DNA of 64,000 nt, from the IMG/VR virus record IMGVR_UViG_3300014501_000013, positions 1 to 64,000 of that record; one strand, 5' to 3'. Positions 8,836-63,169 of this stretch are shown piece after piece. The DNA comes from a virus. Both the position numbers and the translations under genes were made by a program. The notes beneath the pieces are model-generated. The model was not told the DNA's origin, ran no database searches, and saw only the letters and a program-made list of their open reading frames with translations. How positions within the stretch are numbered: position 1 is the stretch's first letter; every line of letters starts with the position of its first letter.

Positions 8836-9027
8836 ATGCAATGGGAAGTCGGGGAGTCAGCAACTCATCCTGGGTATTGGTCTGCCGAGGCTGTCGATTA
8901 TGCCAGCGAAGGCGAAATTTACGTTGTTCTGTTTCTGTGTCCAGACTCTAGGAAAATGGCGGAAGAGTATGTCGCACTGAAGGACGCGCATTCTTCCGCC
9001 ACGGATAGGGTCCTGGCGTCTGCCTAG
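8836..9027 (+). CDS. Small rightward hypothetical protein
   Basis: A 63-aa protein with a strong GGAGGA Shine-Dalgarno 7-8 bases before the ATG at 8836. Sequence blocks: WEVGESATHPGYWSAEAVDY, EGEIYVVLFL, then a helix KMAEEYVALKD. It may be a small alpha/beta fold with alternating strands. Not recognised. It is an isolated plus-strand gene between leftward operons and just beyond the tRNA remnant, so it may have arrived with that junction. Confidence 0.65.
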   Translation: MQWEVGESATHPGYWSAEAVDYASEGEIYVVLFLCPDSRKMAEEYVALKDAHSSATDRVLASA

Positions 9028-9076
9028 TTAGACTCGCGGCGCGGTTCAAGTGGAAAATGCAAGCGCGGCGAAAAGT

Positions 9077-10003
9077 CTACGGGTATCTCCACCGCTCTGG
9101 GGGGATGTGTCTATATTTTCTGGCCAGGTTTCGATTTAACTTCGCGTAATGTAGCGTCCGATGGCGCTTACAGCGGGTCCCGTAGCCATCCTTGCAAAGT
9201 TTGTGCTTGATCTTGAACACAGGTTTATTACATCCGTCCTCGATGCAAATCTTAAGTGCGTGACACCCACTCCCACGTTTGCGCAATGGGATGCCGCATT
9301 TTTTCAGGCGTGCCTGAACGGTTTTGTAGTTGATGCCGAGTTTCTTTGCGATTCGCGGCGTACCCCATCCAAGATCCACGTACAGGTGGTGCAGTTCCTC
9401 CTTCGTGGTCTTGGTTTTTTCGGCCCAACGGCGATCACGGAAAAACTTAGTGAGACAAGTCCGAGAACAAAAACGCCCGGTTCTTCTTGCAGTTTTCGGA
9501 GAAGCAGGAACAAGTTGGCCCAGCAATTGCGGTCTGCCTATATAGCAAATTTCAAAGTCTTCTTCCGACCAAAACTTAGGAGAAATTTTTGGTAAGAAAC
9601 TCAGTCGTTTCTCTTGGGCGGTGGTTAGTTTCTTTTTGGGCACATAGTGCTTCCAATAAAACTTCTGACTACAACATTCGCATACCGCTTTTTGTTTCTC
9701 ATGTACTGGTGGCCTCCCGATTCTAGTTCTACGCCGCGGGGCGAGCCCTGGCTTTATCCAAACATCCCCGAACGTCGTGGTGGTTCCTTCGGCCCGGTTT
9801 AGCGGAGCATCGAGCGAGAGCTGAAACTGCGCCATCGGGTATTTTCTTTTGAGCGCGGGGAGATGCTTACGGATACCGGCACGCATGTTGGTAGCATCAA
9901 TCTCGCCATCAAGAACCAGTACGGCCACATCCTGAATGATCTCCTCAGCCAGGTCGGGCGGAAGGCTCGGAAGTGCCGCTTTGATCTGGTCAAGAAGCTC
10001 CAT
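9077..10003 (-). CDS. Sigma-like/HTH DNA-binding protein with zinc motif
   Basis: A 308-aa protein. Residues 1-60 (LPPDLAEEIIQDVAVLVLDG) resemble the helical core of sigma-70 region 2, as in small ECF-like phage proteins. A middle part has Cys pairs (VCECCSQKFYW, then FCSRTCLTKFFRDRR) that probably bind zinc. Residues around 205-240 (HHLYVDLGWGTPRIAKKLGI, then YKTVQARLKKCGIPLRKRG) are a clear helix-turn-helix of the type found in phage regulators and HNH-associated DNA-binding domains. The basic C-terminus has four more Cys. Likely a transcription factor, perhaps a late-gene switch; I could not assign a named family. GAGG precedes the ATG. Confidence 0.65.
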   Translation of the reverse strand: MELLDQIKAALPSLPPDLAEEIIQDVAVLVLDGEIDATNMRAGIRKHLPALKRKYPMAQFQLSLDAPLNRAEGTTTTFGDVWIKPGLAPRRRTRIGRPPVHEKQKAVCECCSQKFYWKHYVPKKKLTTAQEKRLSFLPKISPKFWSEEDFEICYIGRPQLLGQLVPASPKTARRTGRFCSRTCLTKFFRDRRWAEKTKTTKEELHHLYVDLGWGTPRIAKKLGINYKTVQARLKKCGIPLRKRGSGCHALKICIEDGCNKPVFKIKHKLCKDGYGTRCKRHRTLHYAKLNRNLARKYRHIPPERWRYP

Positions 10004-17764: not shown

Positions 17765-17952
17765 TAACAATCAGCGTGCCCCGCGAGATCGACGCGAAAG
17801 AGCTTTTGCCGCCCAACGCCCATCCGTTTGGGGCTACCCCGCACCATGCGCCCAAGGAATACCGCGTAGAGTGCCGCGACCGTGCCGAGGCCGACATGCT
17901 CGTGAACACAATGCGAAATCAACCTGGAATCAGGGCGATGATTCTCGAATGA
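17755..17952 (+). CDS. Small hypothetical protein, start uncertain
   Basis: The conserved-looking part is SVPREIDAKELLPPNAHPFG, then YRVECRDRAEADMLVNTMRN. A TTG at 17755, overlapping the previous gene, or a GTG at 17776 are the plausible starts; I list the first. The stop overlaps the phosphatase ATG (ATGA). Strand-helix pattern suggests a small ferredoxin-like fold, unproven. Confidence 0.5.
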   Translation: MLIVTISVPREIDAKELLPPNAHPFGATPHHAPKEYRVECRDRAEADMLVNTMRNQPGIRAMILE

Positions 17953-18665
17953 ACGCCACAGCGAAGCCGCAGGATCGCGTTCGGGGTCAAATGGACATAC
18001 CATTGTCGCCGCAGGGCGAAGCCGAGAGCGACCACCTCGGACGGCGCATCGCTGCAAAGGGTGGGATCGATTCCATCGTGGCCTCGCCGATGACTCGGGC
18101 GCAGCAGACCGTAGCCGCCGTGCTCAAGCACAATCCGCAGGCAAAGTTTCTCGGTTCGGCGCAGCAGGCACTCCCCTGGAACCAGGGTGTCGTCACCGGG
18201 CAACCGATCAGTCAGGCCCAGCCGATCATCCAGCAGGCCGCCGACCATCCAGAGACCCCAATCCCAGGAGGCGAGTCCGTCGATCAGGTGGACAACCGCA
18301 GCGGCCAGTTCGTCCACCAGCAACTGCATTCCCTGAAACCCGGAGAACGCCGTTTGGTGCTCGCGCACCACTCCCAGATGCGGTACCTTCACGGATGGGA
18401 GAAAAAGGGGTTTCCGCCCGACATGAGCGCCGATCCAAAGGAAATGGCGACTCGCGCCGACAAAGCGAAGCCCGCCGGTTCGCTAATTCGTCTGGCGAAG
18501 GGCAAAGACGGCAAGCCCATGCTCCACGAGAACCCGATAGACAGCGATGAACCGATTCACGCCGGGCTGAATTTCGCCCGCCACGGGGCGACCGAGTTGA
18601 ACAAGGAATCCGGCGGCTCGCGCCTCTCCGCACTGTCGCCGAAGTCAAAGGCCCCCTTAAGCTGA
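17949..18665 (+). CDS. Histidine phosphatase with circularly permuted motif order
   Basis: A 238-aa protein. In the histidine phosphatase (phosphoglycerate mutase-like) family the RHG motif is N-terminal. Here the protein opens with what normally follows it (VRGQMDIPLSPQGEAESDHL), then SPMTRAQQT with Arg50, the acidic GGES with Glu109, and LAHHSQMR with the second catalytic His near 140. After the last normal strand (GSLIRLAKGKDGKPML) and a short linker comes LNFARHGATELN with Arg211-His212-Gly213, which normally begins the fold. All catalytic residues are present, only reordered. Substrate unknown. Start ATG 17949 overlaps the previous TGA; the upstream extension contains no RHG. Confidence 0.85.
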   Translation: MNATAKPQDRVRGQMDIPLSPQGEAESDHLGRRIAAKGGIDSIVASPMTRAQQTVAAVLKHNPQAKFLGSAQQALPWNQGVVTGQPISQAQPIIQQAADHPETPIPGGESVDQVDNRSGQFVHQQLHSLKPGERRLVLAHHSQMRYLHGWEKKGFPPDMSADPKEMATRADKAKPAGSLIRLAKGKDGKPMLHENPIDSDEPIHAGLNFARHGATELNKESGGSRLSALSPKSKAPLS

Positions 18666-19496: not shown

Positions 19497-19768
19497 TGGC
19501 ATTCAACTTCAAGGCTCCGAATCCATCAAAGTTCATCGCCAAGCCATTCAACATCGGCGCCGACATCGGCCACCTTGAGAAATTTCGACCCCTCGGTCAA
19601 AGTATCGGGATTGGGCTTGATAAGGCATCGCGTGCCGAGGGCGGTCCAGCCAATCCGCTCTCGACCGACCCGCTTGGCAACCCGTCGATCATCAAGCGGC
19701 TTTCGTTCAAGAACCGCATGAACCTGCGACCGAAGTTGGCGACACCGCCAAAGATCAAGCCCGTCTAA
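19496..19768 (+). CDS. 90-aa protein immediately before terL
   Basis: MAFNFKAPNPSKFIAKPFNI, then HLEKFRPLGQSIGIGLDKAS; rich in Pro, Lys and Asn with little helix, so probably extended or disordered. It shares one base with the terL start (TAATG). Possibly a minor virion or packaging-associated protein; not recognised. Confidence 0.6.
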   Translation: MAFNFKAPNPSKFIAKPFNIGADIGHLEKFRPLGQSIGIGLDKASRAEGGPANPLSTDPLGNPSIIKRLSFKNRMNLRPKLATPPKIKPV

Positions 19769-21858
19769 TGGCCAAGCAGCAAGCACAGCCGCGCGTCGTT
19801 CTCCTGACCGGCAAGCAGATCCGCGCGGTCAACCCGAACAAGTACACAGGGCCGTTCCGCGCGGTTTGGTGTGCCGAGCACCACTTTACGGGCCCGTGGC
19901 CTTGCGATTGCCCTTCTGGTCCCCAGACCCAGGCGTGGAACAGTGATGCCGACGAGATTGGGCTCGGCGGCACGCGCGGTTCAGCGAAGACGCACCTAAT
20001 GCTTGCTTGGATGGCGTTCCGAGGCAACCCGAGAAAATTGAATAAGCTTCTCGCTGAAGGCAAACAACCTGAAGGCGCCGACGTGATGTACATCAACCAC
20101 CGCAATTTTCGCGGCTTGATGCTTCGCAATCAAGCTAACGATCTTGAGGATTTGATCGATCGTGCGGAGGAGATGTGGGGACCGACCGGCGCAATCATCA
20201 AGCGCGGCAATCCTTCGATGGCGGAATGGCGCACGGGGGCCAAGATTATCTTCGGGCACTTCGGAGACAACGGCTGGAAAAAGTACGTCGGTCCCGAGTA
20301 TCAGCGGATTGCAATTGACCAGGCTGAGATGATGGAGTCAAAGGAAATCCACGACCGCATTATCGGCTCTTGCCGCTCGAAGTGGTCAGCGTTAAAACCG
20401 CAGGCGCTGTTAACGTTCAATCCTGGCGGCGGCGACGAACTAGCGGGCGCTCCCGGCCAAGCGTGGTTGATGGACTATTTTTACATCGAGGATTACGAGC
20501 GCGGTGAGAAACTAAAGCGCGGAGATTACGTTATCGATGAACATGGCAAGTACCACACGTTCATCATGTCGAAGTGGAGCGATAACCCGTACTTGTGTCA
20601 CTACGTTGAATACGACGCGCCCTACGATGCCGCGACGGGAACCGGCGGAAACGTCACCGTCTACAAGCCGAATGAAGGACCATACGTCAAGTGGCTGAAC
20701 TCGATCGAGCCCGAATCGCTGCGCGCCGCGTGGCGCGACGGCAACTGGCACGCGCTCTCCGGCGCTTACTTCCGCGACTTTCGTCCAAATGGACCGCTGG
20801 TAGGTGAAGAGAAGTACAATGCCAATCACGTCTACGACCCGTCCAAAGTAAAACTCGAATCGTGGTTCCACCGCTGGATGGCTATTGACTGGGGCTATAT
20901 CCATCCGAGTGCGTTGGGGTGGTTCTGCAAATCTCCATGGGGCCAGACGTATCTGGAAAAAGAAATTTGCCTCAATCGCGTTGAGCCCTTCGAACTCGGC
21001 ATCCTGATCGCACGTGAATCCAAGGCTGCGCTTGCGGGAGTCGAATCGCACCAGATGGTGATCTACCTATCGCCTGACGCTTACGCAAAGCGCGAGAGTG
21101 AGAATACGGTGGCTTCGCAGATTGCGGCTGGGATCTCTAGCGAACTTGGTCCGCACGCGGCGTTTGTCGCCGATCTTACCGACGAAGAACGCGAGATGGA
21201 TTCGAAGGACGCGCTTGAATCGCTGAAGCGCCGGCGGCGCGAGCAATCGAATACCATGCTTACCTTGGTGCGCGCATCGACCGATCGCGTGGCGGGCTGG
21301 ATGCACATTCAGACCATGTTTAGGTTCAGACCGCTCCAGGAGCAGGCGGTCCCGGATAAGGAATTCGCCGAACAGTTGGAAATCGAGAAGGGTATCGTTG
21401 CCCGATTGCAATATGAGGCGCTCCCGGAGTTTCTTGCGGCGCGCGAAGTGCTACCGAAATTGCAGATTTCCAAGCAGGCGCGAAATCTGATTAAAATGCT
21501 TCCGATGATGATGCACCGGCCTGGGACAAATGACACAGAAAAACTTGACGCAACTGAAACTCGTCCCGGCGACGACTCCTGCGATATGCTGCGCTACGGA
21601 TGCTTTTCGGAAGAGAGGCAGGGCGCGACCGAGGCTCCGCTCGATGTTCGTGTGGGATTGCAGGTCGCTCAGATGCAGTCGCGCTACGGTGGCGGCATTT
21701 CGCATCACAGCGTTCTGATGGCGACAGAGCAGGCGCGGTGGCGCGAGCAGCATCCACTCGCGAAGAAACAGGACCTGTTCGTTGGGGCTAACAGACTTGC
21801 TGCAATTCGCGCGATGCGTTCTGCTAACTTCGGAAGGGGCAACGAAATAATTCAATGA
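19768..21858 (+). CDS. terL: Terminase large subunit
   Basis: A 696-aa protein: ATP-driven DNA packaging motor plus headful or site-specific nuclease. The ATPase domain has a Walker A GLGGTRGSAKTHL near residue 68 and a Walker B-like QRIAIDQAEMME near 178. The nuclease domain (RNase H fold) has RWMAIDWGYIHPSALGWF near 370 with the first metal-binding Asp, then later acidic residues. An N-terminal Cys element (PWPCDCPSG) near 47 is less usual. Length is longer than average. The stop overlaps the next ATG. No convincing small terminase is adjacent; the candidate lies at 13678. Confidence 0.92.
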   Translation: MAKQQAQPRVVLLTGKQIRAVNPNKYTGPFRAVWCAEHHFTGPWPCDCPSGPQTQAWNSDADEIGLGGTRGSAKTHLMLAWMAFRGNPRKLNKLLAEGKQPEGADVMYINHRNFRGLMLRNQANDLEDLIDRAEEMWGPTGAIIKRGNPSMAEWRTGAKIIFGHFGDNGWKKYVGPEYQRIAIDQAEMMESKEIHDRIIGSCRSKWSALKPQALLTFNPGGGDELAGAPGQAWLMDYFYIEDYERGEKLKRGDYVIDEHGKYHTFIMSKWSDNPYLCHYVEYDAPYDAATGTGGNVTVYKPNEGPYVKWLNSIEPESLRAAWRDGNWHALSGAYFRDFRPNGPLVGEEKYNANHVYDPSKVKLESWFHRWMAIDWGYIHPSALGWFCKSPWGQTYLEKEICLNRVEPFELGILIARESKAALAGVESHQMVIYLSPDAYAKRESENTVASQIAAGISSELGPHAAFVADLTDEEREMDSKDALESLKRRRREQSNTMLTLVRASTDRVAGWMHIQTMFRFRPLQEQAVPDKEFAEQLEIEKGIVARLQYEALPEFLAAREVLPKLQISKQARNLIKMLPMMMHRPGTNDTEKLDATETRPGDDSCDMLRYGCFSEERQGATEAPLDVRVGLQVAQMQSRYGGGISHHSVLMATEQARWREQHPLAKKQDLFVGANRLAAIRAMRSANFGRGNEIIQ

Positions 21859-23665: not shown

Positions 23666-24021
23666 CCTGGACCCAAACCTTCCTGCTCCTGTTCGCCGAC
23701 TACCGCGATGCGCTCGATCGCGTAACGAAGGCGGAAGATGAAGCGCGGTTCGAACGGGGCCGCGCTGATTCGCTCGCGGAGCAACTTGCGACCACTCAGA
23801 AGGACGCACTGGAACGCGAGCGCGTCATCGCCGACCGCATGATGGCTATCAAGCACGGGCCGCGCTCGGTGCTGACCAACGAGCAGATATCCCAAGCGGC
23901 ATTGACGCAGGAACCAAGGAAAACGCCGAATCCCGTGACCGACGTGCGGGAGTGGCAGCAGGCTCAGACCATGAGCACACTGAACACCTTCGACAAGTTC
24001 GACAGAAAAGTGAATGGATAG
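23662..24021 (+). CDS. 119-aa coiled-coil protein (GTG start)
   Basis: TWTQTFLLLFADYRDALDRV begins with an amphipathic helix, then KAEDEARFERGRADSLAEQL, ATTQKDALERERVIADRMM make a long coiled coil. The C-terminus is charged (FDKFDRKVNG). It overlaps the portal gene start by 8 bases. Possibly a scaffold or portal-assembly helper; unproven. Confidence 0.6.
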   Translation: MTWTQTFLLLFADYRDALDRVTKAEDEARFERGRADSLAEQLATTQKDALERERVIADRMMAIKHGPRSVLTNEQISQAALTQEPRKTPNPVTDVREWQQAQTMSTLNTFDKFDRKVNG

Positions 24022-26542
24022 CGCTCTCCTCCAACTGATCGATTGCGATCCGGCGCTCAAGCAGGTTGACGCCACAGGCGCCGCTCCGCTCGACAAGATC
24101 ATCACCGCCGTGGAAACGATGCTCAAGGACTCGGTGGACGCCAACTATCAGGGCGAGCGTGTGCTTCAGCTTTTGCGCCTGGAACGCGCCGACAACTTCT
24201 ATCGCGGTATTCAGAATATCGCGCCAACGATGGATGGACAAACCGGTGCAATCGGCTGGACGCAATTCGGGCCAACGGCCGGAAAAATGGGTGACCCTCA
24301 GACCCAAGCGCGCGCTTTCGATTACAACCCGCGGCTCACCAAATCCTACGGCGATAAGTTCATCGCGGTTCTTGGGCAGCGGCCCTTTTACAACTCAACC
24401 GCCGAACCAATTGACGAAAACAAAGAGCAAGATCGCCGTGGCGCGAGACAAGTGAATCTGCTGATCCAAATGCTGAGCGGCCAACTGGATCTCAAGACTC
24501 TCAACAAGCAACTCTGCTACATCCTCTACAAAAACGGAACGGCCATCGGGCAGGCGAAGCCCGTTGTGGACGCGAAGCGCTTCGGCACGCACGATATCCC
24601 GAACCTGATCCCGCACACAACTTGCCTCGGTTGCGGTGATACAGCACCCAATACTTCGCCTGATACGCAAACGCCGCAGACGTGTCCCGGATGTGGAGGG
24701 CCACTCGCGAACACAGCCGCGCCTGACCCCACACAACCTGTGCTGAGCATTCCGCAGCGCAGCGTAGATTTGGAACTTTTTAGCGGCTACACTCACACAT
24801 GGCCCTTTAGCGTGAAGTTCCAAACCGGCGCGCTCCGCTACTCGCCGTGGGTGGTTGCCAAGTCGGGGAAAGACCGAGGCGCAATCCTCAAGGACTATCC
24901 GCAAGCGCGCAAGATCGTAGGGATGGGTACGAACACCCAGTACGGTTCCGGTTCGCCTGATGATGCGACCGCCGCTGTGGTTCAGGCTTCCGCGCAATCG
25001 CAGACCGGCACAATCCGTTCGCGCAACCTGAATGTTTGGACTGAAGCACTCTACGACATCGATGCTTCGCAAATCGAGTTGATAGACGATGACGCCACGC
25101 GGATGCTGGTCAAGCAGTACTTCTCCGAGGGCATCTTTTGCGTTCAGATTGAGGGGAAGACCGTCGCGATTCACAATCAGGACTATCGCAAGAAGCTCAC
25201 CGTCTGTACGCCGGCCATGTCGGACTATCTTTTCACCGATGGTGGCTGCTGGGGCATGTTGGGGCTCGAAGATTTTTACTCCAACATGCTAAACATCATC
25301 GCCGAAACACTCGAAACCGGCATCATGCGGTTCATTGTTAACGAGGAATACGTTTCTGGTGACGATTTGAACCGAAATCGCTACTCGCCGAACCGTTTTG
25401 TCAGCGCGGTCCCCAAATACGGCGATAATTTGCAGAACGCCGTTGTCCCGCTACCGACTTCCGACTATCCGCAGCAGATCACCGAGGTCTTTGGCATCAT
25501 TGATGGACTGATTCAGAACATTTTGGGGCTCCTGCCGCAAGTTTACGGCCAGATGCCTGGAAACTTGACCCTAGGGCAGGCCCGGATGATGTTAAACCAG
25601 GGCTTGATGCAACTCGGGACCGTCGCGGAGCTGATTTCGAGCTTCTGGGAGGCTTCCTGGACCAATCTGGTCAAGATGTACTGCGAAATAGCGCTCACTA
25701 ACCCGGAATTTCAGGGCCAGAGCATCGATTTGGACCTGATCCGATCGAGCGGCTGGATGGTCAAGAGCGATACCGCAATTCCGCGTTCTTTTGCCGAGCG
25801 CGTCGAGTCACTGCGGGCACTTTTACAGGAAACGCCGCAGTTGGCCGACACTTTGAAGATCACCACTGCTGCAAACGCCGGGAAATTGCGCCAGTACATG
25901 GATCTTCCGGACTTCGAGGACCCCGACGAGGAGGCGATGGACGCCCTCAACGAAATCATCGATCAATTGTGGCAAGCAGCTCCGATGCCGCCTCCTCCGC
26001 CTCAACCTGGACCGCCAGATCCAATTACCGGGATGCCAACACCACCGCCGCCGCCTCCGCCACCGGAGCCATCGATCCCGTTCAACCAAATGCTGTTCGA
26101 TCCGAACATGACGATGCAATTGTGCCGCATGTCGATGCTCAAGGCGATGTTGAAGCCGACCGCGCAGCGCAGTCAGGACAGTCCTGGCTTCCAGAACCTG
26201 GGCGCGTTCTTCTCGCAGGCGCAGCAAGCCGCCGCCCCGCCGCCGCCACCGCCTCCGCAGCCTAAGATGACCTTTACGGCGAAGATTCCGGATCTCACGC
26301 CGGAACAGGAAGGCGCGGTGCTGAACGATTTCGGGGTAACCGTACCGCCGCCGCATCCGGGAGCGATCCAGGCGCGCGCACAGGACAAGATGAACGAACA
26401 AGCTTCGAGTGCTCCTCCCGGCAGTACTTCTCCTGGAGGACCGGGACTTCCTCCCCCCGGTCCTCCAAATTTGTCCATGCCGAGTGGAATTATGCAACCC
26501 GGAACGCCTGCAATGCCCAATCCGATGGGGCCAATTCAATAA
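24014..26542 (+). CDS. Portal protein with inserted zinc ribbon
   Basis: An 842-aa protein, long for a portal. The C-terminal half contains the typical portal features: LEDFYSNMLNIIAETLETGI, DGLIQNILGLLPQVYGQMPG, NLTLGQARMMLNQGLMQLGT, then a helix running into MYCEIALTNPEF. A zinc-ribbon-like insertion (CLGCGDTAPN, TCPGCGGPL) lies near residues 203-233 and is not usual. After about residue 650 the protein becomes Pro-rich and low complexity (PMPPPPPQPGPPDP), then ends with a disordered Pro/Gly tail. It forms the DNA entry ring of the capsid and binds terminase. Confidence 0.88.
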   Translation: MDSALLQLIDCDPALKQVDATGAAPLDKIITAVETMLKDSVDANYQGERVLQLLRLERADNFYRGIQNIAPTMDGQTGAIGWTQFGPTAGKMGDPQTQARAFDYNPRLTKSYGDKFIAVLGQRPFYNSTAEPIDENKEQDRRGARQVNLLIQMLSGQLDLKTLNKQLCYILYKNGTAIGQAKPVVDAKRFGTHDIPNLIPHTTCLGCGDTAPNTSPDTQTPQTCPGCGGPLANTAAPDPTQPVLSIPQRSVDLELFSGYTHTWPFSVKFQTGALRYSPWVVAKSGKDRGAILKDYPQARKIVGMGTNTQYGSGSPDDATAAVVQASAQSQTGTIRSRNLNVWTEALYDIDASQIELIDDDATRMLVKQYFSEGIFCVQIEGKTVAIHNQDYRKKLTVCTPAMSDYLFTDGGCWGMLGLEDFYSNMLNIIAETLETGIMRFIVNEEYVSGDDLNRNRYSPNRFVSAVPKYGDNLQNAVVPLPTSDYPQQITEVFGIIDGLIQNILGLLPQVYGQMPGNLTLGQARMMLNQGLMQLGTVAELISSFWEASWTNLVKMYCEIALTNPEFQGQSIDLDLIRSSGWMVKSDTAIPRSFAERVESLRALLQETPQLADTLKITTAANAGKLRQYMDLPDFEDPDEEAMDALNEIIDQLWQAAPMPPPPPQPGPPDPITGMPTPPPPPPPPEPSIPFNQMLFDPNMTMQLCRMSMLKAMLKPTAQRSQDSPGFQNLGAFFSQAQQAAAPPPPPPPQPKMTFTAKIPDLTPEQEGAVLNDFGVTVPPPHPGAIQARAQDKMNEQASSAPPGSTSPGGPGLPPPGPPNLSMPSGIMQPGTPAMPNPMGPIQ

Positions 26543-30018: not shown

Positions 30019-30666
30019 ATGACCACCATCGAACTGACCCGCTTGAACCGCATTTTCGGCGACAAGTTGGGACTGATACCGACCGGCTTCCCGCAGTCAG
30101 GGGAGCCGGCCTTCCAATACAAGCGTGTGGGCGAGTTGACCTACCCAGCGCCTTACGACACCGAGATCCGCGAAAGTCCTGGCGGGCTCTCTTACGCGCA
30201 GCTTGTCTACCGCATGGAGCCGCAGTTGCCGGGCGATGATCCGCACGGCTGGGTAATCGCGAAGTGGCTGGAGCCTGGCTATTCGCCGCCTGACGTGACC
30301 GGCGCGTTCGGGGAAATGGGCGAGCCGATCATCCTGAGTCCGTCCGACTGGGAGCGGCGCTTCGGTAAGGACATGGGCTATCCCTCCGGCGGCTGGTGGC
30401 TCGCGATTCAGCCGCTGCGCCCCGGCTACGAGCCGGACGAGAAGTGGACGCGCTGGGCCGCAGACAATCTGCATATCCAGCGGTCGCTATCGCTTCGGGA
30501 CACCTTCCGCATGATAATGGCGCGCAACGAAAAGAAAGAGGCGAGCAGGGACCGTGAGATTAGCGCCATGACCAGAGACTGTTTTGTGAACCACGTTCCA
30601 GGCGCTAGGGGTGGTTCGTACATCGCATTTTCAGAAACACCAGAGAAAAAGGAAAGGTATTCATGA
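30019..30666 (+). CDS. Hypothetical protein between capsid and acb2 genes
   Basis: A 215-aa protein. Blocks TRLNRIFGDKLGLIPTGFPQ, GGLSYAQLVYRMEPQLPGDD, then EKWTRWAADNLHIQRSLSLR. Trp- and Pro-rich mixed fold. Similar-sized genes between capsid and tail genes of uncultured phages are uncharacterised. The last 4 bases overlap the acb2 ATG, indicating coupling. Function unknown. Confidence 0.65.
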   Translation: MTTIELTRLNRIFGDKLGLIPTGFPQSGEPAFQYKRVGELTYPAPYDTEIRESPGGLSYAQLVYRMEPQLPGDDPHGWVIAKWLEPGYSPPDVTGAFGEMGEPIILSPSDWERRFGKDMGYPSGGWWLAIQPLRPGYEPDEKWTRWAADNLHIQRSLSLRDTFRMIMARNEKKEASRDREISAMTRDCFVNHVPGARGGSYIAFSETPEKKERYS

Positions 30667-30905
30667 CCGATCAGCAAATAGAAAACACATTCAGCTACCA
30701 CGCGCCATTCGGCGATCAAGCACAGCGCTACGTGCAGATTCGGACCGCGGCTAAAACTCTGGCACTCGTGATCCAAAACGCTTGTCCCGAATCACGCGAG
30801 AAAAGCGTGGCGCTTACTAATCTTCAGCAAACCGTTATGTGGGCGAACTCCAGCATTGCCATTACGGAAGTGCCGCCGCCCACCCAGCCCGTACCCAAGA
30901 ACTAA
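30663..30905 (+). CDS. acb2: Acb2/Tad1-family anti-CBASS protein
   Basis: An 80-aa protein. FSYHAPFGDQAQRYVQIRTA, AKTLALVIQNACPESREKSV, ALTNLQQTVMWANSSIA match the whole Acb2 domain: a FxYHxP start, GDQxxRYxxIRxxAKxLAxxI, CPxSREKSxALTxLxxxVMWANxxIA. Acb2 proteins form hexamers that bind cyclic nucleotide messengers (cyclic dinucleotides and trinucleotides) and so block CBASS immunity by sequestration in the cytoplasm. Length is normal. It sits in the virion operon, coupled to the gene before, which is where Acb2 genes often lie. Messenger specificity cannot be read from sequence here. Confidence 0.88.
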   Translation: MTDQQIENTFSYHAPFGDQAQRYVQIRTAAKTLALVIQNACPESREKSVALTNLQQTVMWANSSIAITEVPPPTQPVPKN

Positions 30906-30913
30906 GGAGACAC

Positions 30914-31714
30914 ATGACACCGCATATGCGACCACCCGCCCCGGCGGATAACGAAGAGGATCAGGGCATAGTTGCCCAAACTCTCGTTGCCTACGGCCAG
31001 CGCGTCCCTGTTTGCAGTTTACACTTCAAGCCGCTCAAAGAAGAGCGCCCGTTCCGCACCACGCTCAAGGAAGGCTACCGGCATGTCTACTACATGTCTG
31101 GAGTCGAGTCGATTGACGATCACCCGATTGTGCTGATGGTGACGGACGCCTACGACAAGGTTTTCGTGAGGACCAATATTATGGGTCAGCGCGAATACAC
31201 CGACAGGCCCACCATGGCCAAGGAGATCGCTGACGATATCGTTCACGTTGGCTCGATGGCGTCCAAGAATAGCGGCCCCGACGATGTTTCGCTTCCGGCG
31301 TTCTGGATCTCGAAGGTACCGGAGGACCGCATTCCCAAGGGCAAGCAATGGCAACTATGGAAGGAACCCAAGGAGTTCGCGAAGACATTTCCTGAGTTTC
31401 ACGCCGAGGCGGTTGCTTACAAGCGGCGCGAGCACCGCTGGTGCCAGTTGCGCGTAACGAATGCCGACGCGAATCATGCCAAAAAGTTGCCTCACGAGAT
31501 TTCATCGCTCGATCGCGACTGCGCGAACTTCATTGGAGCGAATCTCGCGGAGCATCCCTGGATTGAGTTCTCAACCTTCGGGAAGCTTGCGCAGTGCCCG
31601 TTCTGCAAGGCGCCTGTGGACGTGGAGGCATCAATCTGTCAGAGTTGCGCTCGCGTCATTAACCCGGCGCTTCTCGCGCGAACCGAAGCTGGACTTGTAG
31701 CACCCGCAAAATAA
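30914..31714 (+). CDS. Hypothetical protein with C-terminal zinc ribbon
   Basis: A 266-aa protein with AAGGAG before the ATG at 30914. The middle is alpha/beta (YRHVYYMSGVESIDDHPIVL, then WISKVPEDRIPKGKQWQLW). The C-terminus has CPFCKAPVDVEASICQSCAR, a clear zinc ribbon. Frequently seen by me as an uncharacterised phage protein following capsid genes. It could be a small structural or head-maturation protein. Immediately followed by the next gene. Confidence 0.65.
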   Translation: MTPHMRPPAPADNEEDQGIVAQTLVAYGQRVPVCSLHFKPLKEERPFRTTLKEGYRHVYYMSGVESIDDHPIVLMVTDAYDKVFVRTNIMGQREYTDRPTMAKEIADDIVHVGSMASKNSGPDDVSLPAFWISKVPEDRIPKGKQWQLWKEPKEFAKTFPEFHAEAVAYKRREHRWCQLRVTNADANHAKKLPHEISSLDRDCANFIGANLAEHPWIEFSTFGKLAQCPFCKAPVDVEASICQSCARVINPALLARTEAGLVAPAK

Positions 31715-37842: not shown

Positions 37843-38020
37843 CTATTTTCTCAAAAGCTTCCGCTGCTGTTCCCGCCCACTGTTCTGGCGTCATCTCTAC
37901 GCGAAGAACTTCGGTTTTAATGAATTGGCCTGCCGTTATGCGGGACGAACGGCTCTCGTAGATCACATTGCCAGCTTCAGGATTGTCTTCAATGCGAGTC
38001 ACGGTGAGCAGATATTTCAT
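37820..38020 (-). CDS. Minus-strand 66-aa moron-like gene
   Basis: MKYLLTVTRIEDNPEAGNVI, then TEVLRVEMTPEQWAGTAAEA and a short helix. Good protein-like composition, alpha/beta. It is tail-to-tail with the fibre gene before it (23-base overlap) and overlaps the 5' end of the 37992 gene by 29 bases in divergent orientation. Not recognised. The isolation and strand suggest a separately regulated moron. Weak ribosome site. Confidence 0.5.
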   Translation of the reverse strand: MKYLLTVTRIEDNPEAGNVIYESRSSRITAGQFIKTEVLRVEMTPEQWAGTAAEAFEKIANTLKCS

Positions 38021-40550
38021 ATCTCTGATAGTACTTCTATTCGGTTCCGTCGCGGTGTTGGCCCAATCGGTGACCATCTCCGATACGCTCTACCTCCCTG
38101 ACGGTACGAAGTATTCAGGGCAACTCACGATCTCATGGCCAGTACCGTTCACGGGTGGTGATGGTCGGCAGATTCCATCGGGACCGCCGATCTCAACAAG
38201 CGTAAACAATGGAGTGCTGAGTGTGGCGCTTGAGGCGAATAGTACCGCGACACCAGCCGGCACGTTTTACCAAGTAGTTTACCGACCGGCGGGAAGTTCA
38301 GCTATTACCGAAATATGGATCGTCCCCTGCTGCTCTTCTCCGGTAAATCTGAGCACTGTCCGAGTGGCACTTCCGCCGTCGCCGTCCTTCATGATCGCGC
38401 TTTCGCAACTAGCCCAAGGCGGAGCGACTTCGGGCCAGTGCATCACATGGGGTGGCAGTTCGTGGGCCGTTGGCGCGTGCGGCAACCTGCCAAACATCGT
38501 GACACCTGGGACGAACACAAAGATCACCTACAACGCCCAAGGTCTTGTCACGTCAGCCGTCCAAGCTAACTTCACCGACTTGGCGGGATCTTTGCAACTC
38601 ACGCAGACGCCGCTCACTACAAGTCAGGACATCTTATTTGACAACGCCGGAAGTCTTGGGCGTCTTCCCATTTCCTTGGTTGGGAACGGAGCATGTCTTG
38701 GCAACTCCGGCGGCGTGTGGGCCAGTCTGGCGTGTTCGGGAGGCGGCGGTACAGGAACGGTCATCAACGACGCGCCGCTCACGAACGGGCAACTCGCGAT
38801 CGGTGGGACAGCGGGTGGCGTTCACATCACGGTCGGAGATTTGAGTGGGGACATTGCTACCGCTGGCAGCACCGTAACAGTGCTTCCTACTGTCAACTCG
38901 AACGTAGGCACCTGTGGCGATTCGACTCACGTTAGCCATATTACTCTCAATGCTAAAGGACAAGCCACGGCTTGTACTGCGGTGGCTATTTCCGGTGTTT
39001 CTTTCCCGTCTGCCTCGGCCCAGCTCCAATATCTACGCATTCAGCCCAACACCGGCAATCTTACTACTACCCAATTCGCGGGTCCGTTTGTGTTCTACCC
39101 GGAAGACTACAACTTCACTGCGCAAGCCCCAGGCGGCTCTCTGACAGGTGGTGGTGGTACTCAAACAATCAACCTCTCTCCGTGTCCTCTTGGCTTGAAT
39201 GGCTCGGATACATTGCACCAAGTGTATCTTAGCGGGGGAACGGGCACAGCCGAAGCCAAGCCGATTACGGGTGGTACCTGCATATCCGGCGCGTCATCGG
39301 GAACTATTACTCTGTCTCCAACGAACTCGCATAGCGGTGCGTGGACGGTCGGACCTGCATCGGCCGGAATCCAGGAAGCGCTGGTTGCCGCTAGTGGTTC
39401 TGGAGTGAAACTGCGCGATGCCACGTATGGCGTGTACGCGCCGATCTACGTGTGCCAAGGAACACTGACTGGCGCGGGGATGTTCAACTCCATCCTTCAG
39501 ATTCAAACGGCCTCTGTGGGCGCTATTGATGCACCGTGCCAAAAGGACACTTTTGAAAATTTCGGCATCACGACTGCCAGCATGACGCCGGGAACGAGCG
39601 GAAACTACGGAATCCGACTCGGCAACGGATCGGGACACGACAACTCTTTCACGCGCATCAACCGCCTTTACTTTGAGCCGCTGTACGACGCGATCCTTTG
39701 CATCAATTGCTCCCAGACTTCGATTACGAACAACGTTTTTTACAACTTCTACCACACCGCGATCACGGCTAACGACACCACGGGCGGAGACAACGATGGG
39801 CCTTGGATTCGCGGCAACGTGATGTTTAACTACAACTCGTACTCGACGCCGGCGCTCGCCTGCATGTACATCACTTCGACGGGTGGCATCACGATCACCG
39901 ACAACAATTGCTACGGAAGTTCGGCGCTTACTTCGCCGCAACTCCAGTACAACGTCTACATGAATCAGACGGCATCGACGCAGTTGACGATGAAAGGGAA
40001 TGTCTTCGAGACGGTATCAGTGGATAACGTAGCGCTGGTTGGGGTCTTTAATCTTATCACTATCACTGGCAATACCATCGCGCAGCCGCAAGTCGCCCAA
40101 TCGGGGTGGCGCGGCATTACGATTAGCGGCAATAACACGACCAGTCCATGCGGCAGCGGAATCGGCATCTGCCAGGTTGCGATTACAGGAAACACTATTC
40201 AGGGTCCGGGGCCAAGTTCTAGTTCTTCCGTCTGCATTGAACTGATCGGCTATATAAGTGGTGCGTTCATCGGCGGGAACCCCTGTAACTTTTCGCAGAT
40301 CGGCGTCAACATCGGCAGCAACGTGACGGCCACCACCGTGGGCCAGAACCAGATGTCCACATATAGCACTAACGTATACGGCGGTTCGACGGGCACAACA
40401 TGGGACTCGCCAGCAGCAATCGTCTGGTCTCAGCGCCCGATAGCAGCGAATGGTTCTGTTATCTACATGAGCGATGCCAACGCGGGCTGCACCGCTGGAG
40501 GCTCCAGTGGCCAACGGTGTGAATTTATAAATTCTGCATGGACCCATTAA
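37992..40550 (+). CDS. Signal-peptide fibre with a right-handed beta-helix
   Basis: An 852-aa protein from ATG 37992 (AGGA 9 bases before). RYFISLIVLLFGSVAVLAQS is a signal peptide with an Ala-x-Ala-Gln site. Residues about 100-430 are fibre-like; about 500-800 contain repeating coils with TNNVFYNFYHTAITAN, RGNVMFNYNSY, ITITDNNCYG, LTMKGNVFETV, ITITGNTIAQP, a pectin-lyase-like right-handed beta-helix (NosD type). These domains bind or cleave polysaccharide, so this is a likely receptor-binding or depolymerase spike. Confidence 0.7.
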   Translation: MRVTVSRYFISLIVLLFGSVAVLAQSVTISDTLYLPDGTKYSGQLTISWPVPFTGGDGRQIPSGPPISTSVNNGVLSVALEANSTATPAGTFYQVVYRPAGSSAITEIWIVPCCSSPVNLSTVRVALPPSPSFMIALSQLAQGGATSGQCITWGGSSWAVGACGNLPNIVTPGTNTKITYNAQGLVTSAVQANFTDLAGSLQLTQTPLTTSQDILFDNAGSLGRLPISLVGNGACLGNSGGVWASLACSGGGGTGTVINDAPLTNGQLAIGGTAGGVHITVGDLSGDIATAGSTVTVLPTVNSNVGTCGDSTHVSHITLNAKGQATACTAVAISGVSFPSASAQLQYLRIQPNTGNLTTTQFAGPFVFYPEDYNFTAQAPGGSLTGGGGTQTINLSPCPLGLNGSDTLHQVYLSGGTGTAEAKPITGGTCISGASSGTITLSPTNSHSGAWTVGPASAGIQEALVAASGSGVKLRDATYGVYAPIYVCQGTLTGAGMFNSILQIQTASVGAIDAPCQKDTFENFGITTASMTPGTSGNYGIRLGNGSGHDNSFTRINRLYFEPLYDAILCINCSQTSITNNVFYNFYHTAITANDTTGGDNDGPWIRGNVMFNYNSYSTPALACMYITSTGGITITDNNCYGSSALTSPQLQYNVYMNQTASTQLTMKGNVFETVSVDNVALVGVFNLITITGNTIAQPQVAQSGWRGITISGNNTTSPCGSGIGICQVAITGNTIQGPGPSSSSSVCIELIGYISGAFIGGNPCNFSQIGVNIGSNVTATTVGQNQMSTYSTNVYGGSTGTTWDSPAAIVWSQRPIAANGSVIYMSDANAGCTAGGSSGQRCEFINSAWTH

Positions 40551-62413: not shown

Positions 62414-63169
62414 TCATTCCTCCTTGGCCTCGGGCGCGTCAGGTCTAAACGTAACGTCGTAGCTAGACCAGTGCGTACCGTCATCCGCTTCGTACCACGG
62501 CTCCCCGTGAGGAGCGCCTACTGTTTTCGAGATGCGAGCCCGACGCCTGTAATTGTTTCCGAGAATCCAGCCGGTGCCGAATCCCTCCTTGGCCTCGGGC
62601 GGTGATGGTGACCAAGATGGGTCATCCCATGGTTGCGGCTTGGCCTCGGGCGCTGCGGGCTCCTGAGGAACAGTCGGCGCTGGAATTTGCATGGCAGGGT
62701 CCTCTTTGGCCATCGCTATATATGCCTGCATGACATCGTGTAGCACTGCTAAAGCTTCGTTGACGTCAGCCCCGTGCGCAGTACACCCAGGAAGATCAGG
62801 GATTCTAGCGATTACATCCCCTTCTTCATCCATCGTCAGGGCGACTGCGTATGGGAATTGGAAACATCGAACAGCGGCTTCCGATTCAGGCTTATCGGAT
62901 GCTGCTGGTTGGGCGAGAGCCTGCCGCAACTCCATAACGCGTGGATAGAGAACGTATCCTGCCCCTGTCGTCCACAGACTATTGTGGTAGGTGTTCTCCA
63001 GATGCACGAAGTCGTTATCAATCCGCTTCAACAAGTCCTCCAACTCCGCGACCCGCTTGGAGACGGCGTCGTGGGAGTCGAGCACTCGAAATAATGTATC
63101 TGAACCAAACGAGTGCTTTCGTATCGCCTCCAACTCGGCGTCGGTCAGAATTGGCTTATCGGTCGGCAT
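62414..63169 (-). CDS. HicB-like antitoxin domain fused to coiled coil
   Basis: A 251-aa protein. Residues 1-95 are coiled coil (DSHDAVSKRVAELEDLLKRI). FPYAVALTMDEEGDVIARIP, DLPGCTAHGADVNEALAVLH, DVMQAYIAMAKE near 105-160 is a HicB-type domain (xxxPDLPGCxxxGxxxxEAxxxxxEAI). The C-terminus is Pro-rich and repeats PEAKE/PEAKP, then a folded end (TVGAPHGEPWYEADDGTHWS). No HicA toxin gene is present, so it may neutralise a host HicA or is used in another way. The partner gene starts 1 base later. Confidence 0.75.
   Translation of the reverse strand: MPTDKPILTDAELEAIRKHSFGSDTLFRVLDSHDAVSKRVAELEDLLKRIDNDFVHLENTYHNSLWTTGAGYVLYPRVMELRQALAQPAASDKPESEAAVRCFQFPYAVALTMDEEGDVIARIPDLPGCTAHGADVNEALAVLHDVMQAYIAMAKEDPAMQIPAPTVPQEPAAPEAKPQPWDDPSWSPSPPEAKEGFGTGWILGNNYRRRARISKTVGAPHGEPWYEADDGTHWSSYDVTFRPDAPEAKEE

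Follow-up and report, generated by a model that had tools for sequence, protein, structure and literature searches.

The known systems closest to the gene reported here include the Acb2 proteins, whose characterised members sequester CBASS messengers according to the accessible parts of the respective papers (PMC10097602, PMC12657218, PMC12043709). The Acb2 protomer is composed of a short N-terminal helix and two long antiparallel helices (accessible part of PMC12043709), an arrangement found in the products of two small phage genes, T4 Vs.4 (7uq2) and PaP2 p26 (8h2j). In T4 Acb2, cGAMP is stacked by Y8 and F82 and held by polar contacts with Y8, H11, K23 and R79, and the residues of the hexamer interface include A66 and A77 (available text of PMC10097602). 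Tad1 (7uav, 8kbc) possesses an N-terminal beta-sheet domain in addition to a C-terminal hairpin. Its gcADPR pocket is formed by loops, the C-terminal tail and two helices of the full Tad1 protomer pair, and the Tad1 hexamer can bind cyclic trinucleotides (both from the available portion of PMC12043709). Related actinobacteriophage genes have already been published as putative Acb2 or cyclic nucleotide sequestering proteins (PMC13348362, PMC11953737, as far as their accessible text goes). A literature search, with most subscription papers outside its reach, found no paper on the structure 9ptq ('Acb2 homolog 43') or on Acb2 in head operons.

A divergent phage, represented by an environmental sequence record alone, can be added to the Acb2 carriers. 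Its DNA was analysed as a stretch of 64,000 nucleotides, the window, which encodes an intact 80 aa frame running from ATG to TAA, here named acb2, within a packaging and head gene block. The features of this block are given below together with identities to L021 (12 kb), the one relative found with the same gene order as the window.

19768-21858, + strand: terminase large subunit (TerL); phrog_2, E 3.6e-17; 53% identical in L021; a secure assignment
24014-26542, + strand: probable portal, 842 aa, from position and size; no Pfam or PHROG match; 44% identical in L021
28088-29512, + strand: probable major capsid protein, 474 aa, from its place after TerL and its size; 65% identical over 449 aa in L021
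29529-29801, - strand: 90-aa ORF flanked by the capsid gene on one side and the gene upstream of acb2 on the other; no Pfam match
30019-30666, + strand: upstream gene, 215 aa; no family match; 41% identical homologue in L021
30663-30905, + strand: acb2, predicted cyclic-nucleotide sponge, 80-aa Acb2/Tad1-hairpin protein; from PF24729, phrog_1454, AlphaFold2 model and Foldseek
30914-31714, + strand: downstream gene, 266 aa; C-terminal zinc-ribbon-like motif with weak DZR matches below cut-off; 39% identical homologue in L021

The initial annotation had located acb2 inside the virion operon, and this placement is supported by TerL, by a near-continuous run of + strand genes and by the gene order of L021. 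We infer the portal and major capsid labels from position and size; the match of the capsid-like protein to phrog_9953 'major head protein' is sub-threshold (E 0.063) and its AlphaFold2 model, built from two sequences, reached a pLDDT of only 30.8. Pfam searches of ten window ORFs returned one weak Big_2 match, and the portal had no match in the 'phages' database. The ATG of acb2 overlaps the TGA of the upstream gene (ATGA at 30663-30666) and is preceded by the SD-like AAGGAAAGG. The downstream gene begins 8 bases past the acb2 stop, the TAA of which merges into an AAGGAG ribosome-binding-site-like stretch. Between 18500 and 37000, 4 promoter-like sites were found compared with 6.4 in shuffled sequences, and none near acb2 exceeded chance, making co-transcription with the late genes the default reading. 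The window has no tRNA gene that ARAGORN could detect. A Histidine phosphatase superfamily protein is encoded a short way ahead of the terminase region (17871-18665, + strand; PF00300, E 1.1e-18), and a HicB-like match is found at 62414-63169 on the - strand (phrog_497, E 8.3e-9).

Judged by profile comparison, the acb2 product is a member of the Acb2/Tad1 hairpin family and belongs to the large SREKS/MWAN clade. Residues 11-66 align with positions 1-57 of the 58 in Pfam profile PF24729 (Acb2_Tad1_hairpin) at E 6.4e-17 and 61.9 bits, exceeding the curated cut-off of 27, and phrog_1454 (function not assigned) matches at E 1.2e-21. A search of 50,697 phage records found homologues in 199 of them at E <= 0.01, mainly of Mycobacterium, Paenibacillus and Gordonia phages; homologues are also present in 5 plasmid records and in 486 of the 525 IMG/VR stretches obtained in one scan with patterns derived from a 14-sequence alignment. 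The two family matches combined with the phage and IMG/VR homologues indicate that the ORF is no chance match. The 486 stretches also show that environmental virus contigs commonly carry members of the clade, whereas the literature describes Acb2 as relatively rare and confined to particular groups (PMC11722364, accessible part). Hanem gp24, Microbacterium phage NoodlelyBoi gp26 and a protein of Paenibacillus phage Bob belong to the same clade and are 34-59% identical to acb2, but these phages give no sign of kinship with the window phage. NCBIfam searches of 3 proteins and a PADLOC search of P0001 each returned 0 families. With the single acb2 protein as query, phmmer listed 9ptq alone from the PDB (E 0.46). 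Among solved structures, a profile of 67 clade members that excludes T4 matched 9ptq (E 3.2e-5) and, less strongly, Tad1 (E 0.005); it did not list PaP2 Acb2. The region shared by acb2 and 9ptq is PE.REKSV...T.L, and the reported match excludes the N-terminal F-x-YH-x-P part of acb2. Duplicate sequences were dropped from the clade set, as were loci with a stop inside the match (L013, L014); only the stop-free part of L014 enters alignments A3 and A4.

The putative nucleotide pocket of acb2 resembles that of T4 Acb2 in part. The whole Acb2 signature had been reported for this protein, and the protein does contain all four of its motifs (FSYHAP, residues 10-15; RYVQIR, 22-27; CPESREKS, 41-48; VMWAN, 58-62), but they mark the SREKS/MWAN clade rather than the characterised Acb2 proteins. 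Once T4 Vs.4 and PaP2 p26 join the clade alignment, only Y12 and T52 are invariant. Identity to acb2 is 24% for T4 Vs.4 and 16% for PaP2 p26, and the interhelix loop of both proteins is missing from acb2. In the alignment, T4 Y8 corresponds to Y12, a tyrosine in 66 of 67 clade members, and the basic K23 to R27, an arginine in 66 of 67; the interface alanines A66 and A77 are found as A50 and A61, each conserved in 67/67. Y12, R27, T52, A61 and N62 are each conserved in between 64 and all 67 of the clade sequences. The remaining T4 contacts differ: R79 is replaced by S63 (clade: Ala in 61/67), F82 by A66 (Ala in 66/67) and H11 by P15. In PaP2 p26, for which 8h2j is by its title a 3'3'-cGAMP structure, Ala stands at the place of F82 and Arg is kept at that of R79. 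The predicted nucleotide pocket is thus partly conserved, and the T4 ligand preference should not be copied; with R79 and F82 replaced, the ligand cannot be read from T4. The sequestration of CBASS messengers claimed in the initial annotation accordingly stands for the characterised members, and for acb2, with Ser63 and Ala66 in the pocket, it is a probable function. Our best guess for the ligand is a cyclic trinucleotide such as cA3.

The predicted fold agrees with the family assignment. AlphaFold2, given 67 aligned clade members, yielded a model with a pLDDT of 92.5, helices at residues 3-9, 19-40 and 45-68 and no strands, and this model shows the Acb2 protomer plan. The top Foldseek match in the PDB is T4 Vs.4 (probability 0.95, E 0.4). 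VIA-align Z-scores are 6.6 for 7uq2, 5.8 for 8h2x and 5.6 for 8kbc (Tad1 with cAAA), no better than those of unrelated helical hairpins, which reach up to 7.2, so that the fold alone proves nothing and the sequence profile carries the assignment. The C-terminal hairpin of Tad1 (SRE...ALT...MW.N) and the Pfam domain name are shared with acb2. Identity as a Tad1 is nevertheless ruled out because the N-terminal beta-sheet domain is absent from this 80 aa protein with its strandless model. The acb2 product is an ordinary Acb2-family member.

Comparison with L021 shows that acb2 can be present or absent at its operon junction. In L021, the two genes that flank acb2 in the window overlap directly by ATGA and acb2 is absent. 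With the same junction lacking the gene, acb2 behaves there as a one-gene presence/absence cassette. After the capsid-like gene, L021 carries an HNH endonuclease gene (9026-9712, - strand; HNH_3, E 1.1e-5, just above the cut-off), and in the window the 90-aa ORF occupies the place of this gene, one gene away from the cassette. The presence of a minus-strand HNH gene or ORF beside the junction makes this a plausible insertion hot spot. The GC3 of acb2 is 62.5% compared with 68-75% in four neighbouring genes, weakly in favour of gene gain. A search with the capsid protein against IMG/VR and genome_contigs found L021 only and nothing in genomes. L125, a 4.3 kb IMG/VR record, encodes a TerL 99% identical to that of the window, and the phage species may occur in another sample.

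Placement at packaging or head genes recurs among carriers of the gene but is not the rule. It is seen in four of nine named phages: the homologue lies at the portal in Gordonia phage Hanem, between capsid protease and capsid in NoodlelyBoi, two genes before TerL in Jasmine and 1.2 kb before TerL in Taquito. In the other five, Bob and Scottie included, the gene is located outside the head region. The best-known Acb2 genes, which are not counted among the nine, do not belong to virion operons either: T4 vs.4 maps to the vs/denV region, and PaP2 p26 closes the minus-strand block that encodes DNA polymerase and primase. Among IMG/VR loci, 7 of 10 neighbour genes, distributed over 6 of 9 loci (L042, L050, L063, L088, L099, L106), encode TerL or portal, a figure that is illustrative and not a rate since the ten were hand-picked as long ORFs beside acb2. 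Portal, terminase and head families are among the 25 commonest of 191 families represented by the 125 nearest genes (at least 120 aa) of 66 de-replicated loci, as called by a crude custom gene caller which missed acb2 in the window. A phrog_2 TerL is present in 18 of 50 contigs, which represent a subset of the loci, and acb2 lies on the same strand within 6 kb of it in 8 of these 18. With strand ignored, 5.1 would be expected, and the difference is not significant (P 0.09); omitting the 7.6-kb contig L042 gives 7 compared with 4.1 expected (P 0.09). A significant tie of acb2 to terminase is therefore rejected.

One bacterial genome carries a close homologue and a CBASS operon. In a single-sequence scan of genome_contigs the only match was a Bryobacterales MAG (G014) with 68% identity. 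The homologue adjoins a recombinase-like gene and lies some kb from chromosomal genes that, by eye, we take to be metG- and larC-like. The same MAG encodes a complete CBASS operon with CD-NTase, HORMA, TRIP13 and NucC consecutively. NucC is activated by cyclic tri-AMP (available part of PMC12043709), and the NucC-type CBASS of this MAG is a hint that the target may be cyclic tri-AMP. In the phylum of this MAG, with 347 genomes searched, 5 have the hairpin domain above the cut-off, 31 have a SMODS match and 10 a NucC match. Only the Bryobacterales MAG, one of the 5, combines the hairpin domain with NucC, which is compatible with chance (P 0.14), and one of the 5 combines it with SMODS (P 0.38); neither co-occurrence is accepted as proof. 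The window TerL gave 2 weak partial matches in the 347 genomes.

Overall, we favour with considerable confidence a model in which acb2 encodes a hexameric sponge of the Acb2/Tad1-hairpin type directed against a signal used by CBASS or by a related system. The likeliest assembly is an Acb2-like hexamer, which would sequester the cyclic oligonucleotide alarm signal, and with the signal soaked up the CBASS effector would stay off. The gene would represent a mobile cassette of one gene that has entered the packaging and head operon at a single junction. Its translation would be coupled to that of the preceding gene via the ATGA overlap and its transcription would proceed with the virion genes, such that the sponge would appear alongside the head proteins. 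T4 vs.4 and PaP2 p26 differ in lying outside the head operon. Head proteins can trigger CBASS, as cited for the Bas13 prohead protease in the accessible text of PMC12409349, and a sponge gene in a head operon consequently provides a clear timing hypothesis. The position of acb2 is a lead on timing and no new kind of system. A more far-reaching version, in which the sponge is packaged in the head and delivered with the DNA, or made as the CBASS-triggering head proteins appear, and in which the clade is tuned to the NucC-activating cyclic tri-AMP, is speculative and in our estimate very unlikely. Carriage of acb2 could also be a liability, given that Panoptes is triggered by Acb2 (PMC12657218, accessible part).

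Other functions would have to account for the same observations. The protein could be a sponge for another immune nucleotide, either the Thoeris signal gcADPR, as in the case of Tad1, or a further signal that is not a CBASS oligonucleotide. The clade profile lies nearer to the Tad1 hairpin than to PaP2 Acb2, the SRE...ALT...MW.N stretch is common to the clade and Tad1, and at one clade locus, L072, the neighbour is the anti-Thoeris gene tad3. On the other hand, the beta domain is lacking and the gcADPR pocket draws on elements of the full Tad1 protomer pair, and the MAG with the close homologue carries CBASS, so we regard this alternative as unlikely. It is highly improbable that acb2 encodes a virion or head-assembly protein which kept the hairpin fold and lost nucleotide binding. 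Such a role would fit a gene positioned among head genes, the loss of three T4 pocket contacts and the annotation of the S-2L homologue as a tail assembly protein, but it is at odds with the near-invariance of Y12, R27, T52, A61 and N62, with a location outside the head region in five of the nine named phages and with the complete absence of the gene from L021. That same absence, together with the deviating GC3, would be expected of a decayed or non-functional passenger gene. Against this stand the intact frame, the SD-like element, the overlap with the preceding gene and the presence of the clade-invariant residues, and we assign this possibility a negligible probability. A nucleotide sponge acting against CBASS or a related system remains the preferred reading.

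Several homologous loci show further features of their own. In Hanem (L024, 5001-7289), acb2 comes directly after portal, and the genes that follow it encode an RNA ligase and a VIP2-like ADP-ribosyltransferase; the head region may thus contain a counter-defence cluster. In the environmental virus contig L072 (G382), a clade acb2 (37923-38129, - strand) is preceded at a distance of roughly 0.5 kb by tad3 (38654-38980, - strand; PF25185, E 8.7e-35), and the two constitute a small anti-defence pair seen in 1 of the 50 records examined. The homologue of Cyanophage S-2L (MW334946.1, 35205-35402) is 47% identical to the L032 protein, and its label 'tail assembly protein' is probably a misannotation. 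Many Acb2 homologues of Paenibacillus and Brevibacillus phages are labelled 'phosphomannomutase', which is impossible for a helical hairpin of about 70 aa.
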